A DNA stretch of 52,130 nucleotides, from the NCBI GenBank assembly GCA_017993615.1, contig JAGOMJ010000014.1:1-52130 (forward strand), written 5' to 3'. The notes beneath the pieces were generated by a model. It saw nothing but the letters and a program-made list of their open reading frames with translations, was not told where the DNA came from and did no database searches. This stretch comes from Smithella sp. Its GTDB lineage: Bacteria > Desulfobacterota > Syntrophia > Syntrophales > Smithellaceae. Positions 2,191 through 8,243 of this stretch are shown here, piece after piece; position 1 is the stretch's first letter, and each line of letters opens with the position of its first letter. Position numbers and translations under genes: made by a program.

Positions 2191-3249
2191 CTATTTCTTC
2201 TTTCGTTTTTCCGGTCGTAATTCACGCACGGCAGCGCCGGCTTTCCACATTTCCGAATCACGCATCTGTTTAAGTTCTTTTTCCAGTTTGACCCGGTAAT
2301 CGGGAGCACTGTTGGCCTTCAGGACAATGGCTGTTTCCTTGCCACTCGCCACCGACTTATAAAGCTCGGCAAACACGGGTGCAACCGCTTTGCGGAATTT
2401 ATGACGCCAATCCAGAGCGCCGCGCTGAGCCGTGGTGGAGCAATTGGCATACATCCAGTCCATACCGTTTTCTGCAACCAGACGGATCAGGCTCTGTGTC
2501 AGTTCTTCCACCGTTTCGTTAAAAGCTTCACTGGGCGTATGGCGGTGTTTGCGCAGTTCGTTGTACTGGGCTTCCATGATGCCCGCCAGCGCACCCATAA
2601 GCACGCCGCGTTCACCGGTCAAATCGCTGTAAACCTCGTTCTGGAAGGTTGTCGGGAATAAAAATCCGGAGCCGATGGCGATGCCCAGGGCCAGCGTTCT
2701 TTCCATTGCGCGTCCCGTATAATCCTGCTGCACGGCAAAGCTGGAGTTGATACCGCTGCCGTCCAGGAAATTCCGGCGGACGGATGTTCCCGACCCTTTG
2801 GGAGCTACCATGATCACATCAACAAATTTTGGCGGTATAACGCCGGTCTGCTTTCTGTAAACAATGGAAAATCCGTGTGAGAAATATAGAGCGTCGCCCT
2901 CTTTCAGGTTAGCCTTGACCTTGGGCCAAAGAAGTTTCTGCGCCGCATCAGAAACCAGATACTGAATGATGGTACCGCGCTTGACCGCTTCTTCAATCGG
3001 GAAAAGAGTCTTGCCGGGCTTCCATCCATCGGCAATGGCCTTTTTCCAGTAGCGCGTATCTTCCTTGGCCTGGCCGATGATCACATTAATGCCGTTATCC
3101 TTCATATTAGCCGCCTGAGCCGGCCCCTGCACGCCGTACCCCAGCACTGCCACCACATCATTCTTCAAAACTTTCTGAGCTTTTTTCAGAGGAAATTCCT
3201 TCGCCGTAATAACATCTTCGAGAACACCGCCAAAATTAATTTTTGCCAT
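2191..3249 (-). CDS. ilvC: Ketol-acid reductoisomerase (NADP+)
   Basis: Carries out the alkyl migration and NADPH-dependent reduction of acetolactate or acetohydroxybutyrate, the second shared step of branched-chain amino acid synthesis. The Rossmann motif [10 protein letters not shown] is at residues 37-46. The C-terminal knotted helical domain holds the acidic metal-ligand region near [11 protein letters not shown] and the later EETVEEL-like helix. At 352 residues it is slightly longer than common class I enzymes (~330-340) and ends in a basic tail, RPEKRKKK. ilvN lies 31 bases upstream, so the genes are co-transcribed. Confidence 0.97.
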
Positions 3250-3280: not shown

Positions 3281-3766
3281 TTAGTTTTCCAAATTTAAAG
3301 CGACAATGCCGGTTCTTGTGATATCGGCTATGCCCAGCGGCTCCAGTCTGGCCAGCGCAAAATCAATCTGTGACCGATCACCGGTTATTTCCAGAATCAC
3401 GTAGGTGTCGGCATTGACTATTACCTTCCATTTATTCATGTCAACAGCTTTTTTTATCTGTTCTTTTTTATCGGCCGCCAGATTTAACCGCACGAGGATC
3501 AATTCGCGGTGAATCGATTCCACATTGGTCAAATCATCCACCTGAATTACATCTACCAGCCTTCGCAATTGCCCTTCGATTCTGTTGATGGTGTCCTGCG
3601 TACCCACGGTGGTCATCACGATTTTTGATACTTCGTAATGTGTGGTTGAATTCACGCACAGGCTTTCGATGTTATAACCCTTACCGCCCAGGATGCCGGC
3701 GATTCTCGCCAGCACGTCCGGTTTGTTGTGAACCAGTATTGAAATGATATGTTCCTTCTTTTCCAT
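3281..3766 (-). CDS. ilvN: Acetolactate synthase, small regulatory subunit
   Basis: Regulatory partner of IlvB; the family binds valine through its ACT domain and gives feedback inhibition. Residues about 4-77 form the ACT domain (ISILVHNKPDVLARIAGIL...) and the rest is the ALS small-subunit C-terminal domain; 161 residues is normal. I choose the ATG at 3766 because AGGGAG lies just upstream of it. The frame is open to an earlier ATG at 3781, which has no ribosome-binding site. It is separated from ilvB by about 168 bases occupied by a palindromic repeat. Confidence 0.95.
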   Translation of the reverse strand: MEKKEHIISILVHNKPDVLARIAGILGGKGYNIESLCVNSTTHYEVSKIVMTTVGTQDTINRIEGQLRRLVDVIQVDDLTNVESIHRELILVRLNLAADKKEQIKKAVDMNKWKVIVNADTYVILEITGDRSQIDFALARLEPLGIADITRTGIVALNLEN

Positions 3767-3826
3767 CTTCTCCCTCATCATATTATTTATTATTTAATAC
3801 TTCTTATTTAAAAACTTTGTCAAAAG

Positions 3827-3938
3827 CTACAGAGGCAAGGCGCGCGAAGCCTGAGAAGTGAGGCGTATTTTTCACATACGCCGCAACGCCGAAGGATGAA
3901 GCGCAACGCAGCATCTGGACTTTTCACGAAATCGTCAA
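3827..3938. repeat. REP-like palindromic element, copy B, inside the ilv operon
   Basis: The core is a perfect 7-bp stem GGCGTAT (3862-3868) / ATACGCC (3876-3882) with a 7-base loop. It is flanked by GC-rich imperfect repeats (GGCAAGGCGCGCGAAGCC on the left, GAAGCGCAACGCAGC on the right) and ends in GACTTTTCACGAAATCGTCAA. Similar blocks are common between genes in deltaproteobacteria (recalled, not searched). It fills most of the ilvB-ilvN gap. Position, core sequence and stem size match copy A at 331-401. Confidence 0.6.
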
Positions 3939-5638
3939 TTGATCATTTCTCTGCTCCCCAGCGACATGTTGCTGATCGAATCGCCCGGATGCACCATGGG
4001 GTAAACGCATTCTTCCCGGGAGACACGAAAATCCATCAGCACCGGTTTGTCAATAGCCAGTCCTTCTTTTAACACAGGCTCCACGTCTTCCGGTTTTGTG
4101 GCGCGCAAGCCCACGACGCCGAACGCCTCAGCCAGTTTTACAAAATCAGGCGCATAGGTCATATCTGTAAATGAATACCGTTTTTCGTAAAACAATTCCT
4201 GCCACTGACGCACCATGCCCAGATAGCCGTTATTCAGCAGAACGATTTTTACATTGATTTTATACTGCGCGGCGGTGGCCAGTTCCTGGATATTCATCTG
4301 GATACTGCCGTCGCCGGCAATGTCCACCACGTGCTTGTCGGGAAAAGCGCATTTCACACCGATAGCCGCGGGGAAACCGAATCCCATTGTTCCCAGTCCG
4401 CCGGATGAAATAAACGTATTGGGCTTGTCAAACGGGAAGAACTGCGCGGTCCACATCTGGTTCTGGCCGACTTCCGTTGTAATAATCGCGTCGCCGCCGG
4501 TCAACTTATACAGTGTCTCGATGACAGACTGCGGTTTGATGACGTTGCCGTTCTGGCAATAGGTCAGCGGCACTTTTTCCTTCCAGCCGGCAATTTCATT
4601 CAGCCATTCATTTCTTGCATCCTTGTCATAAGCGTAATTGTGTTCGTCCAGAAATGTGATGAGGTCCTTCAGCACCGCCTGGGTATCGCCGATGATCGGC
4701 AGATCCACGGCAACGTTTTTATTGATGGATGACGGATCAATGTCAATCTGAACTATTTTGGCCTTGGCGGCAAACGTATCGATGGTGCCGGTTACCCGGT
4801 CGTCAAATCTGACGCCCACGGCAATGAGCAGATCACAATGGCTGATCGCCATGTTGGCATAGTACGTTCCGTGCATGCCCAGCATGCCCAGCCAAAGCGG
4901 ATCAGTCCCCGGGAAAGAACCAAGCCCCATCAGGGTTCCGGTCACCGGCATCTGATATTTCCTGGCAAACTCCGTTAGGAGCGATGACGCCCTGCCCAGA
5001 ATGACACCGCCGCCGGTCATAATCAGAGGCTTTTTCGCCGCTGTCAGCAAATCCAGTAAACCGGCCATCTTTTTCGGAGCCGGTTTGTACGCGGCCTCAT
5101 GATTTCTGATTTTGATGTTGGCCGGATCATATTCCGTCTGGGCCGCCATCACATTTTTAGGCAGATCAACAAGCACCGGACCGGGTCTTCCCGAGCGGGC
5201 AATATCAAACGCTTCCTTGATCGTCGCAGCGAGATCGTCAATATTGCGCACCAGAAAATTATGTTTGGTGCACGGACGGGTTATGCCGGTGATATCGCAT
5301 TCCTGAAAAGCGTCGTTGCCGATCAGCGCAGTGGGAACCTGCCCCGTAAAAACAACCAGAGGAATGGAATCCATATTCGCCGTGGCAATGCCGGTGACTG
5401 TGTTGGTTGCGCCGGGACCCGACGTCACCAGACAAACGCCGACTTTTCCGGTGGACCGGGCATAGCCGTCGGCTGCGTGCACGGCTCCCTGCTCATGCCG
5501 GACCAGAATGTGTTTCATGTTGCTTTTGTATATCTGATCGTAAATATCGAGAACAGCGCCTCCGGGATACCCGAAGATAATTTCAACCTTCTCCTCTTCG
5601 AGCGCTTTCAGCAATATTTCTGTCCCCTTCAGTTTCAT
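3935..5638 (-). CDS. ilvB: Acetolactate synthase, large catalytic subunit
   Basis: ThDP-dependent condensation of pyruvate with pyruvate or 2-ketobutyrate, the committed step of Val/Leu/Ile synthesis. The 567 residues hold the N-terminal ThDP Pyr domain with the catalytic glutamate in LVRHEQGAVHAADGYAR (E49), a central FAD-type domain, and a C-terminal PP domain with the GDGS...NN ThDP/Mg motif near residue 435. The ATG at 5638 is preceded by AAGGGGAAAAGGA. It is the first structural gene behind the attenuator (5893-6096), with about 250 untranslated bases between terminator and start. Confidence 0.97.
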   Translation of the reverse strand: MKLKGTEILLKALEEEKVEIIFGYPGGAVLDIYDQIYKSNMKHILVRHEQGAVHAADGYARSTGKVGVCLVTSGPGATNTVTGIATANMDSIPLVVFTGQVPTALIGNDAFQECDITGITRPCTKHNFLVRNIDDLAATIKEAFDIARSGRPGPVLVDLPKNVMAAQTEYDPANIKIRNHEAAYKPAPKKMAGLLDLLTAAKKPLIMTGGGVILGRASSLLTEFARKYQMPVTGTLMGLGSFPGTDPLWLGMLGMHGTYYANMAISHCDLLIAVGVRFDDRVTGTIDTFAAKAKIVQIDIDPSSINKNVAVDLPIIGDTQAVLKDLITFLDEHNYAYDKDARNEWLNEIAGWKEKVPLTYCQNGNVIKPQSVIETLYKLTGGDAIITTEVGQNQMWTAQFFPFDKPNTFISSGGLGTMGFGFPAAIGVKCAFPDKHVVDIAGDGSIQMNIQELATAAQYKINVKIVLLNNGYLGMVRQWQELFYEKRYSFTDMTYAPDFVKLAEAFGVVGLRATKPEDVEPVLKEGLAIDKPVLMDFRVSREECVYPMVHPGDSISNMSLGSREMIN

Positions 5639-5892: not shown

Positions 5893-5930
5893 AAAAAAAG
5901 CCGCCTGTTTCCTTGAGAAAAAGCGGCTTT
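5893..5930 (-). terminator. Intrinsic terminator of the ilv attenuator (3:4)
   Basis: AAAGCCGC (5930-5923) pairs with GCGGCTTT (5904-5897). The stem can be extended inside the loop by TTTC/GAAA. A run of seven T follows the stem on the transcribed strand (5899-5893). It lies about 65 bases beyond the leader peptide stop and 255 bases before ilvB. Confidence 0.88.
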
Positions 5931-5973
5931 ATGCCAAAAACAACAAAGCCGCGGGCTTCAGGGGCCTGCGGCT
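5893..5973 (-). promoter_or_regulatory. ilv operon transcription attenuator (alternative hairpins)
   Basis: Read on the minus strand, four segments follow the leader peptide. Segment 1 is 5973-5961 (AGCCGCAGGCCCC), segment 2 is 5956-5945 (GCCCGCGGCTTT), segment 3 is 5930-5923 (AAAGCCGC) and segment 4 is 5904-5897 (GCGGCTTT), running into a T-run to 5893. Pair 1:2 is a 10-bp stem with one mismatch. Pair 2:3 is a perfect 8-bp antiterminator (GCGGCTTT with AAAGCCGC). Pair 3:4 is a perfect 8-bp terminator. Pairs 2:3 and 3:4 share segment 3 and exclude each other. Segment 1 can also pair with the 3' end of the leader frame (6019-6007). This is the classical ribosome-stalling attenuator design. Confidence 0.88.
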
Positions 5974-5994
5974 AGTATCTTTTATTCCGGTTTC

Positions 5995-6096
5995 TTAAAG
6001 ATACAGAGCAGCAGACCCCGTAAGTACGACTACTACGAGGACCAGTACTTTATTCAGTACCCGGATAATGCCGCTTTGTAAAACTTTAAGAAACAT
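5995..6096 (-). CDS. ilv leader peptide (attenuator peptide)
   Basis: A 33-codon frame, ATG at 6096 to TAA at 5995-5997, lies between the promoter at 6130-6158 and the attenuator. It begins MFLKVLQSGIIR, carries the run VLVLVVVVL at residues 17-25 and ends GSAALYL. Eighteen of 33 residues are Val (8), Leu (8) or Ile (2). Slow translation of the Val/Leu run under amino acid shortage would leave the 3' part of the leader RNA free to pair with segment 1. The ribosome-binding site is weak (GGA about 11 bases upstream). It is analogous to IvbL/IlvL leaders in role; no homology is claimed. Confidence 0.85.
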   Translation of the reverse strand: MFLKVLQSGIIRVLNKVLVLVVVVLTGSAALYL

Positions 6097-6129
6097 AAAC
6101 ACATCATTCCGTTGAATTATTTCGTGCTT

Positions 6130-6218: not shown

Positions 6219-8243
6219 CTACCGGAATAAACCTTTAATAGAATCGCCCAGAGTGCTGCTGGGAGACGTTCCCAACAGGAAGGCTTCATTGGTCCCCTTT
6301 TCCGAAGGTCCGGCAGGCTCTCCCGTTTTCGGATTGATTTTTTCAAAGACGATGCCTTCCGGAACGGGAAAAGACTCCACCGGTGTGTTCTGCAAGGCCT
6401 TTTCCATAAAATAAAGCCAGATCGGTGCCGCCGCCCGTCCGCCGACTTCCTGTGATCCCAGCGAGGCTTCCTGATCGAAACCGATCCACACTCCGGTGAT
6501 CAGCGAAGGCGTCATCCCGATAAACCAGGCATCACGCGTATCGTTGGTCGTTCCGGTTTTTGCAGCCACCGGACGCCCTATGCTCCTGACTCTCGTACCG
6601 GTGCCGCTTGTTACGACATCCTGCATGACATGAGTCGTGATGAATGCGATGCGGGGATCAATCACCTGTTCCGGCTGAACTTTTGTTTCTTCAAAAACAT
6701 TGCCGGTGCGATCAACGATTTTTTTGATGAAAAAAGGAGAAACTTTCTGTCCCTGATTAGCCAAAACGCCATACGCTTGAACCAGCTCCTGCAGCGTTAC
6801 CCCGGATGCGCCCAGTGCCAAAGACAGTGTTCGCACCAGAGGGGATGTAATTCCCATATTCATGGCGTACGAAACAGCATAATCAATGCCGATTTCCTGC
6901 AAAATTTTTACCGTTACAACATTGCGGGACAGCACGAGCGCCGTTCTCATTGTGATCGGCCCCATGAATTTGTCGTCAAAGTTTTTCGGCCTCCAGATGC
7001 CGTCAGGCTGCGAAACATCATCCACAGCAAGCGGTGAATCGTCAATAACGGTTGCAGGCGTCATGCCTTTATCAAAAGCCGCCGTATAAATGATCGGTTT
7101 GAACGCTGAACCGGCCTGACGTCGTGACTGCGTCGCGCGGTTGAACTCGCTTTGATTGAAGTCGCGCCCGCCGACCATCGCACGGATGGCACCCGTTCTG
7201 ACGTCCATGCAGAAAAGCGCGCCTTGCACGAGACCGGATTTGTATTTATTCCGTTCCTCCAGTTCCTTCAAGCCCCGCTCCATCGCCTCCCCGGCGTACT
7301 TCTGCGCGGTCAGATCCAGCGTGGTATAGATGGAAAGACCTTCCTTGTACAAAACATCGGCGCCGTATTTTTCCTGAACATACCGTCGAACGGTCTCGAC
7401 GAAATAGGCGGCCATCTTGTCCTTGGGGCGGATGGATCGCAGATTCATCGGCGCAGCATACGCTTTTTCCATTTCCTCCTGGGAAATATAGCCGTCTTCT
7501 TTCATGCGCGTCAGAACGTAATATTGTCTTTGTTTGGCTTTGTCATAATGAAGGAAAGGGGAATAATTGCTGGGAGCTTTGGGCATACCGGCCAGAAGAG
7601 CCGCTTCGTGCAATTTCAGTTCCCGGGCACTCTTCCCGAAATAACCAAGCGAAGCGGACTCTATGCCGTAAGTACCATGGCCCAGATAAATCTGGTTTAA
7701 ATATAAATTCAGAATCTCGTCTTTGGTCAGGTACCGATCAATTTTGTAAGCTAGAATAGCTTCCTTGAATTTACGGGTATATTTCTTTTCGGGAGAAAGA
7801 TACATCATCTTGGCAACCTGCTGGGTAATCGTGCTGCCGCCCTGGATGATATGTCCCGCCTCGATGTTTTTGAAAACCGCCCGGAAAATGCTTTGCAGAT
7901 CGAAACCCTTGTGCGCAAAGAAACGGGAATCCTCCGCCGCCACAAAAGCCTGAACAACAACTCGCGGAACTTCCTTAATCTTGATGAGTTTTCTGTCTTC
8001 CAGAAAAAACTCATCGATCAGTTCGTTTTTATCGTCATAAACGCGGGAAGAAATGCTGGGACGATAATCCTTGAGCGCATCGATACCGGGCAAATCCATC
8101 GTAAAAGCATAGAATCCGATGACCCCGAAAACTGTCATCACCAGAATGAAGACGACAAAGCCCAGAAAAAAATTAAAAAGCGAAGAAAGTTTTTTAGCTT
8201 CTCCGTCGTTTTTTCTGTTTGACTTTTTACGATTTAGAAACAT
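6219..8243 (-). CDS. mrcA: Penicillin-binding protein 1A (class A, bifunctional)
   Basis: Polymerises glycan strands and cross-links peptides of peptidoglycan at the inner membrane, periplasmic side. One membrane anchor spans residues ~22-48. The GT51 domain has the catalytic glutamate in AAEDSRFFAHKG (E104) and GGSTITQQ (135-142). The transpeptidase domain has SAFK (379-382, nucleophile S379), SRN (439-441) and KTGT (562-565). The 674 residues are on the short side for PBP1A (some ~800), lacking a long OB-like insert. It follows tatC by 8 bases, so the two are almost certainly co-transcribed. Confidence 0.95.
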   Translation of the reverse strand: MFLNRKKSNRKNDGEAKKLSSLFNFFLGFVVFILVMTVFGVIGFYAFTMDLPGIDALKDYRPSISSRVYDDKNELIDEFFLEDRKLIKIKEVPRVVVQAFVAAEDSRFFAHKGFDLQSIFRAVFKNIEAGHIIQGGSTITQQVAKMMYLSPEKKYTRKFKEAILAYKIDRYLTKDEILNLYLNQIYLGHGTYGIESASLGYFGKSARELKLHEAALLAGMPKAPSNYSPFLHYDKAKQRQYYVLTRMKEDGYISQEEMEKAYAAPMNLRSIRPKDKMAAYFVETVRRYVQEKYGADVLYKEGLSIYTTLDLTAQKYAGEAMERGLKELEERNKYKSGLVQGALFCMDVRTGAIRAMVGGRDFNQSEFNRATQSRRQAGSAFKPIIYTAAFDKGMTPATVIDDSPLAVDDVSQPDGIWRPKNFDDKFMGPITMRTALVLSRNVVTVKILQEIGIDYAVSYAMNMGITSPLVRTLSLALGASGVTLQELVQAYGVLANQGQKVSPFFIKKIVDRTGNVFEETKVQPEQVIDPRIAFITTHVMQDVVTSGTGTRVRSIGRPVAAKTGTTNDTRDAWFIGMTPSLITGVWIGFDQEASLGSQEVGGRAAAPIWLYFMEKALQNTPVESFPVPEGIVFEKINPKTGEPAGPSEKGTNEAFLLGTSPSSTLGDSIKGLFR

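Follow-up and report, generated by a model that had tools for sequence, protein, structure and literature searches.

A leader with six pairing segments and two serial terminators as the likely attenuator of ilvBNCD in Smithella

Results and Discussion

On the basis of modelled folding, we propose that the leader preceding ilvBNCD in Smithella sp. is very likely a ribosome-mediated transcription attenuator with six pairing segments and two serial terminators. The element was found in a 52,130-nt stretch of DNA, in the following called the window. A preliminary description of the window had already placed ilvBNCD under a leader-peptide attenuator; this assignment is supported by modelled-ribosome folding, conservation, and covariation, whereas the segment logic proposed with it had to be revised.

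Genomic context and promoter

The attenuator, on the minus strand, is flanked by a gene for a penicillin-binding protein (8243-6219, minus strand) and by the genes ilvB-ilvN-ilvC-ilvD (5638-431, minus strand). The latter were assigned by Pfam domains and code for the large subunit of acetolactate synthase (ilvB, 3935-5638; TPP_enzyme N/M/C), its small subunit (ilvN/H, 3281-3781; ALS_ss_C and ACT_AHAS_ss), ketol-acid reductoisomerase (ilvC, 2191-3249; KARI_N and KARI_C), and dihydroxy-acid dehydratase (ilvD, 431-2092; ILVD_EDD_N and ILV_EDD_C). The host is a Smithella-type genus of the Syntrophales, and Smithella sp. SCADC is among the closest relatives with respect to ilvB.

Sequence and comparison with relatives point to a promoter at 6158-6130 of the minus strand, which consists of the -35 box TTGACA (6158-6153), a spacer of 17 nt, and the -10 box TATTGA (6135-6130). 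It is situated outside the interval 5893-6096 originally given for the attenuator, which does enclose the leader and its hairpins. TTGACA is kept 54-67 nt 5' of the leader ATG in 32 of 33 relatives; in the remaining one, the contig is truncated. Despite this conserved box, a generic promoter scan made no call in the leader region. Downstream, a dispersed repeat with nine more partial matches in the same genome occupies positions 5892-5776 between the second terminator and ilvB. Relatives carry other repeat copies or none in this spacer; consequently, the distance from leader to ilvB varies several-fold.

The putative leader peptide

The predicted leader frame of 33 codons was found as described, at 6096-5995 of the minus strand. 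Its putative product, MFLKVLQSGIIRVLNKVLVLVVVVLTGSAALYL, contains eight valines, eight leucines, and two isoleucines; thus, 18 of 33 codons of this short ORF specify product amino acids. The control run GTA CTG GTC CTC GTA GTA GTC GTA CTT is located within the ORF at 6048-6022 (minus strand). In 33 of 34 family genomes the leader is sited 5' of ilvB, and in the 34th (G011) it is found at a contig end. The ilvB gene of G011 is on a separate contig (loci L097 and L178), with a dus-like gene and repeats as 5' neighbours; this layout may be due to a rearrangement or an assembly break.

The ORF might encode a small membrane peptide with a function of its own, the RNA structure being secondary; the hydrophobic character of the peptide and the conservation of its core VLVLVVVVLTGSAALYL within the genus agree with this. 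We see hardly any chance for this explanation: outside the genus the reading frame of the ORF end shifts among relatives (TGSAALYL, GLPLRIFKK, GSAGSCIFKN) while the nucleotides remain unchanged, and the type of residue follows the downstream gene (Trp, Phe, Leu). This shift of the frame over unchanged nucleotides points to the RNA pairing as the conserved feature at the end of the ORF.

Six segments and two predicted terminators

The region folds at -80 kcal/mol, compared to -56 +/- 4.5 kcal/mol for shuffled sequences (z = -5.2); the leader structure is not a product of chance. Six segments, named A to F, were delineated on the minus strand. Segment A (6094-6084), at the start of the ORF, is the 5' arm of a protector and pairs in the computed folds with 6000-5990, a stretch that overlaps the 3' end of segment B. 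Segment B (6019-5997), at the end of the ORF, is the 5' arm of an antiterminator and forms 20 bp with segment C (5982-5961). The latter can alternatively pair with segment D (5956-5945) to give the predicted terminator T1, whose U-tract TTTGTTGTTTTT occupies 5947-5936, so that D and the U-tract together span 5956-5936. Segment E (AAAGCCGC, 5930-5923) pairs either with D, giving a second antiterminator, or with segment F, which together with the U-tract of terminator T2 extends over 5904-5893. The resulting chain is A:B (protector), B:C (antiterminator), C:D (T1), D:E (second antiterminator), and E:F (T2). In this chain B:C excludes C:D and D:E excludes E:F; in each case an antiterminator competes with a U-tract terminator. 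At least five U within 8 nt follow T1 in 97 of 100 homologous elements.

The preliminary description had arranged the same region into four segments, with a 1:2 hairpin, an 8-bp 2:3 antiterminator, and an 8-bp 3:4 terminator. All three hairpins exist: 1:2 at 5973-5947, 2:3 as GCGGCTTT with AAAGCCGC (5930-5923), and 3:4 as AAAGCCGC with GCGGCTTTTTTT (5904-5893), the last two sharing AAAGCCGC as stated. Yet 2:3 and 3:4 account only for the downstream half of the device. The former segment 2 corresponds to D plus the U-tract of T1 (5956-5936), and hairpin 1:2 is itself a predicted terminator with its own U-tract. Moreover, the B:C antiterminator (6019-5997 with 5982-5961) and the protector (6094-6084 with 6000-5990) had been overlooked; the hairpins of the preliminary description all start after the stop codon. 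A classical attenuator, having 5973-5947 as pause or protector hairpin, 2:3 as sole antiterminator, and 3:4 as sole terminator, is very improbable in spite of the existence of these three hairpins. Segment 1 starts 22 nt past the stop codon and thus lies too far downstream to be masked from the Val codons (6048-6022), where the ribosome would stall. In addition, the hairpin regarded as protector carries a conserved U-tract, and the conserved 20-bp helix B:C as well as A:B would have no role.

Folding with a modelled ribosome

In order to follow the switch between these structures, a ribosome was placed on the leader codon by codon and the remaining free RNA was folded. For A-site positions from codon 15 to codon 23 of the Smithella ilv leader (codon 23 marks the position VVV/V), B:C forms with P = 0.77-1.0, and T1 reaches at most 0.01. 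With the ribosome anywhere from codon 28 to the stop codon, or without ribosome, T1 has a value of 0.83 and T2 of 0.99. Varying the footprint from 10 to 18 nt leaves the switch point within codons 21-24. Among 33 family leaders, the switch lies inside the Val/Leu run in 31, and T1 forms in the absence of a ribosome in 31. Thus, in silico, the ilv leaders favour the antiterminator as long as the ribosome occupies the control codons, and the terminator once it has reached the stop codon.

We infer the following mechanism of termination, stalling, and response to starvation. Transcription would start near 6123, and the leader ORF would be translated. When Val or Leu is short, the ribosome would stall in the run at 6048-6022, just 5' of B. 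B:C could then pair, D would be released to pair with E, both T1 and T2 would be blocked, and ilvBNCD would be transcribed; a single event, the pairing of B:C upon a stall in the Val run, would thus release both terminators. If no ribosome is present, A would pair with the end of B, C would be free for D, and T1 and T2 would both form (superattenuation).

In the ilv family, D:E forms before F exists (P = 0.79-0.86), whereas in the full transcript of the stalled Smithella leader at equilibrium T2 has a value of 0.6 and D:E of 0.3, that is, T2 is partly blocked. Since equilibrium blocks T2 only in part, we assume a kinetic effect: D:E would have to form first and to last. Alternatively, only T1 might be regulated by the ribosome; T2 would then be a second terminator that acts constitutively, and D:E would simply follow from the similarity of the hairpins. 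In agreement with this alternative, equilibrium folding prefers T2 to D:E in most stalled states, and single-terminator relatives are present at other ilvB genes. We nevertheless regard it as unlikely, as a strong constitutive T2 would defeat induction and D and E change jointly between three sequence states.

Conservation and covariation

When relatives were inspected for a loss of the leader frame or of the pairings, both turned out to be retained. Within the ilv family alone most pairs hardly vary; covariation is weak there because the segments are nearly invariant, and more diverse members were required. In an alignment of 33 diverse members, the terminator pairs C:D and E:F together showed 34 double-changed cells (7.6 in shuffled controls; 0/500) and the antiterminator pairs B:C and D:E showed 24 (6.6 in shuffled controls; 0/500); note that the sequences are related, so that these counts represent non-independent events. 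Three main states of the core were observed, GCCGC, GCCGU, and GCCAU, which co-vary along segments C to F. Pairing of D with E was further assessed by counting pairs in 84 complete loci: within-locus pairing was higher than in any of 2000 between-locus swaps. The complementarity of D and E could be a mere consequence of the similarity of the T1 and T2 hairpins.

The same chassis upstream of other amino acid genes

Of the 155 genomes of the order, 132 are matched by a covariance model deduced from the ilv leaders (R1). The weaker R1 matches are the same element 5' of other amino acid genes, with fitting codon runs. As these matches carried other runs, a second model (R2) was built without regulatory codons; its training set included some trp, Phe, Tyr/Phe, and leuA members from the R1 search, with the regulatory codons removed. 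Within the order, R2 finds the element in 154 of 155 genomes; in a sample spread over the phylum, it does so in 154 of 395. The E-values of the covariance models are rough. Loci from 31 genomes plus a few earlier finds were clustered by downstream gene.

In each of the 30 trpE loci, a stretch of 12 codons contains at least three Trp (13/1800 in shuffled windows). The 25 DAHP synthase loci, a class absent from the training set, are without exception rich in Phe, Tyr, or Trp (shuffled: 23/1500), and all 25 loci with a Peripla_BP_6 ABC binding protein have runs of Phe or, in two cases, Tyr (shuffled: 97/1500). For these three classes, the codon thresholds were fixed after the leaders had been inspected; with this proviso, the leader amino acid fits the downstream gene in 80 of 80 tabulated loci. 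Further cases are leuA with Leu, ADH synthase with Tyr/Phe, and trpD and IorA with Trp. Outside the order, fifteen loci were inspected; in nearly all of them, a run of the appropriate amino acid is readily recognised. The host genome itself contains four elements, which precede ilvB, trpE (NNWWWNL), DAHP synthase (GYWFYTYF), and the binding protein (AVFFFFFSF).

These data bear on the notion that T1 and T2 are plain tandem terminators of the upstream gene and that the ORF is incidental. The gene of the penicillin-binding protein is indeed encoded on the same strand, with its end at 6219; however, a conserved promoter and a leader intervene, the element stays with ilvB, trpE, or aro genes while the upstream genes change, and the leader codons fit the downstream gene. 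We give this notion practically no credence.

In all 80 non-ilv loci B:C is possible before D is made, and it is 7-10 kcal/mol better than with shuffled B. The equilibrium folding test fails for nearly all trpE leaders, where T1 prevails despite a stalled ribosome. Because T1 is the more stable structure, antitermination at trpE would have to be kinetic, with B:C winning by speed. Equipped with other regulatory codons, the chassis very probably controls trpE, DAHP synthase, leuA, and amino acid transport genes in the phylum. There is roughly an even chance that one ancestral tandem-terminator attenuator was copied within genomes of the phylum and retuned solely by swapping the regulatory codon run, which would have given rise to Val/Leu/Ile, Leu, Trp, Phe, and Tyr readers for biosynthesis and uptake.

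Several loci deserve separate mention. Leaders with Phe runs precede a Peripla_BP_6 binding protein at L201 and at about 24 homologous loci; these proteins at best resemble branched-chain types. At L300 and L309, Tyr runs precede a paralogue. Given these Phe and Tyr runs, aromatic substrates are predicted for the binding proteins. At L313, L306, L260, L268, L279, L303, L245, and L308 the chassis has Trp runs (IorA, trpD, outer-membrane-like protein) or Phe-rich leaders (AMP-ligase-like, thiolase-like). Tandem genes for the large subunit of acetolactate synthase occur at L179-L183 (genomes G052, G050, G054, G056, and G053), with the chassis 5' of the first gene and, in several cases, an additional single-terminator leader 5' of the second ilvB. 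Another type of ilvB leader, having one terminator (AACCGUUACCGGC...GGUAACGGUUUUUU) and Ile/Val/Leu runs, is found in other Syntrophales and in Desulfobacterales (L122, L124, L125, L127-L131, L019, L020, L011, L030, L031, L037, and L042); in the four of these that were scanned, no Rfam match was found.

Comparison with known attenuators

Attenuation is textbook knowledge for enterics. The preliminary description had supposed that this leader is new for the lineage, and our searches agree: no Rfam family, including T-box, Leu_leader, and ilvB motifs, reached the gathering score in the 52,130-nt window or in 11 further loci, matches at E <= 10 were weak and unrelated, and a literature search, which covered largely non-subscription journals, gave no description for the lineage.

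The closest analogue is the his attenuator of Salmonella and E. coli, whose six segments are likewise named A-F. In both systems the pairings alternate along a chain that is switched as a whole by a stall, and one extra hairpin is inserted between pause hairpin and terminator. The his-type chain (A:B, C:D, and E:F versus B:C and D:E) is present here, but the last hairpin is not the sole terminator: the extra his hairpin is no terminator, whereas C:D has a U-tract and is the first terminator of our element. The leader, moreover, is of the Val/Leu/Ile type and stems from another phylum. The attenuator would work like the his device but is a variant of it.

The attenuators of E. coli ilvGMEDA, ilvBN, and trp share with our element a leader peptide with regulatory codons, protector, antiterminator, and terminator, as well as the preference for termination with the ribosome at the stop codon (PMC1183508); in contrast to them, one stall would control two terminators here, and the sequence matches no Rfam leader. 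The ilvBNC attenuator of Corynebacterium glutamicum resembles ours in its operon and in its logic of antiantiterminator, antiterminator, and terminator, but it is actinobacterial and has a single terminator and three hairpins in all (PMC11857589). The tandem attenuators of Salmonella mgtCBR also comprise more than one attenuation step per leader; they use two short ORFs (PMC3641672), whereas here one ORF and one stall would set both terminators. Finally, the rimP-leader of some Gammaproteobacteria has tandem terminators, the upstream one with a possible antiterminator; it precedes different genes and is unreported as an amino acid leader peptide system (PMC2965389).

Implications

An extra hairpin before the his terminator has been modelled, and is thought, to lower basal readthrough (PMC1183508); by analogy with this model, a reduced basal readthrough is a possible reason for serial terminators. 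The leaders also provide substrate predictions for poorly annotated genes, namely a Phe-reading ABC transporter and its Tyr-reading paralogue; further predictions concern a Trp-reading indolepyruvate oxidoreductase and an outer-membrane-like protein. The chassis offers a natural example of the modularity of sensor and actuator, and one RNA design appears to underlie much of the control of branched-chain and aromatic amino acids in this phylum of anaerobes.
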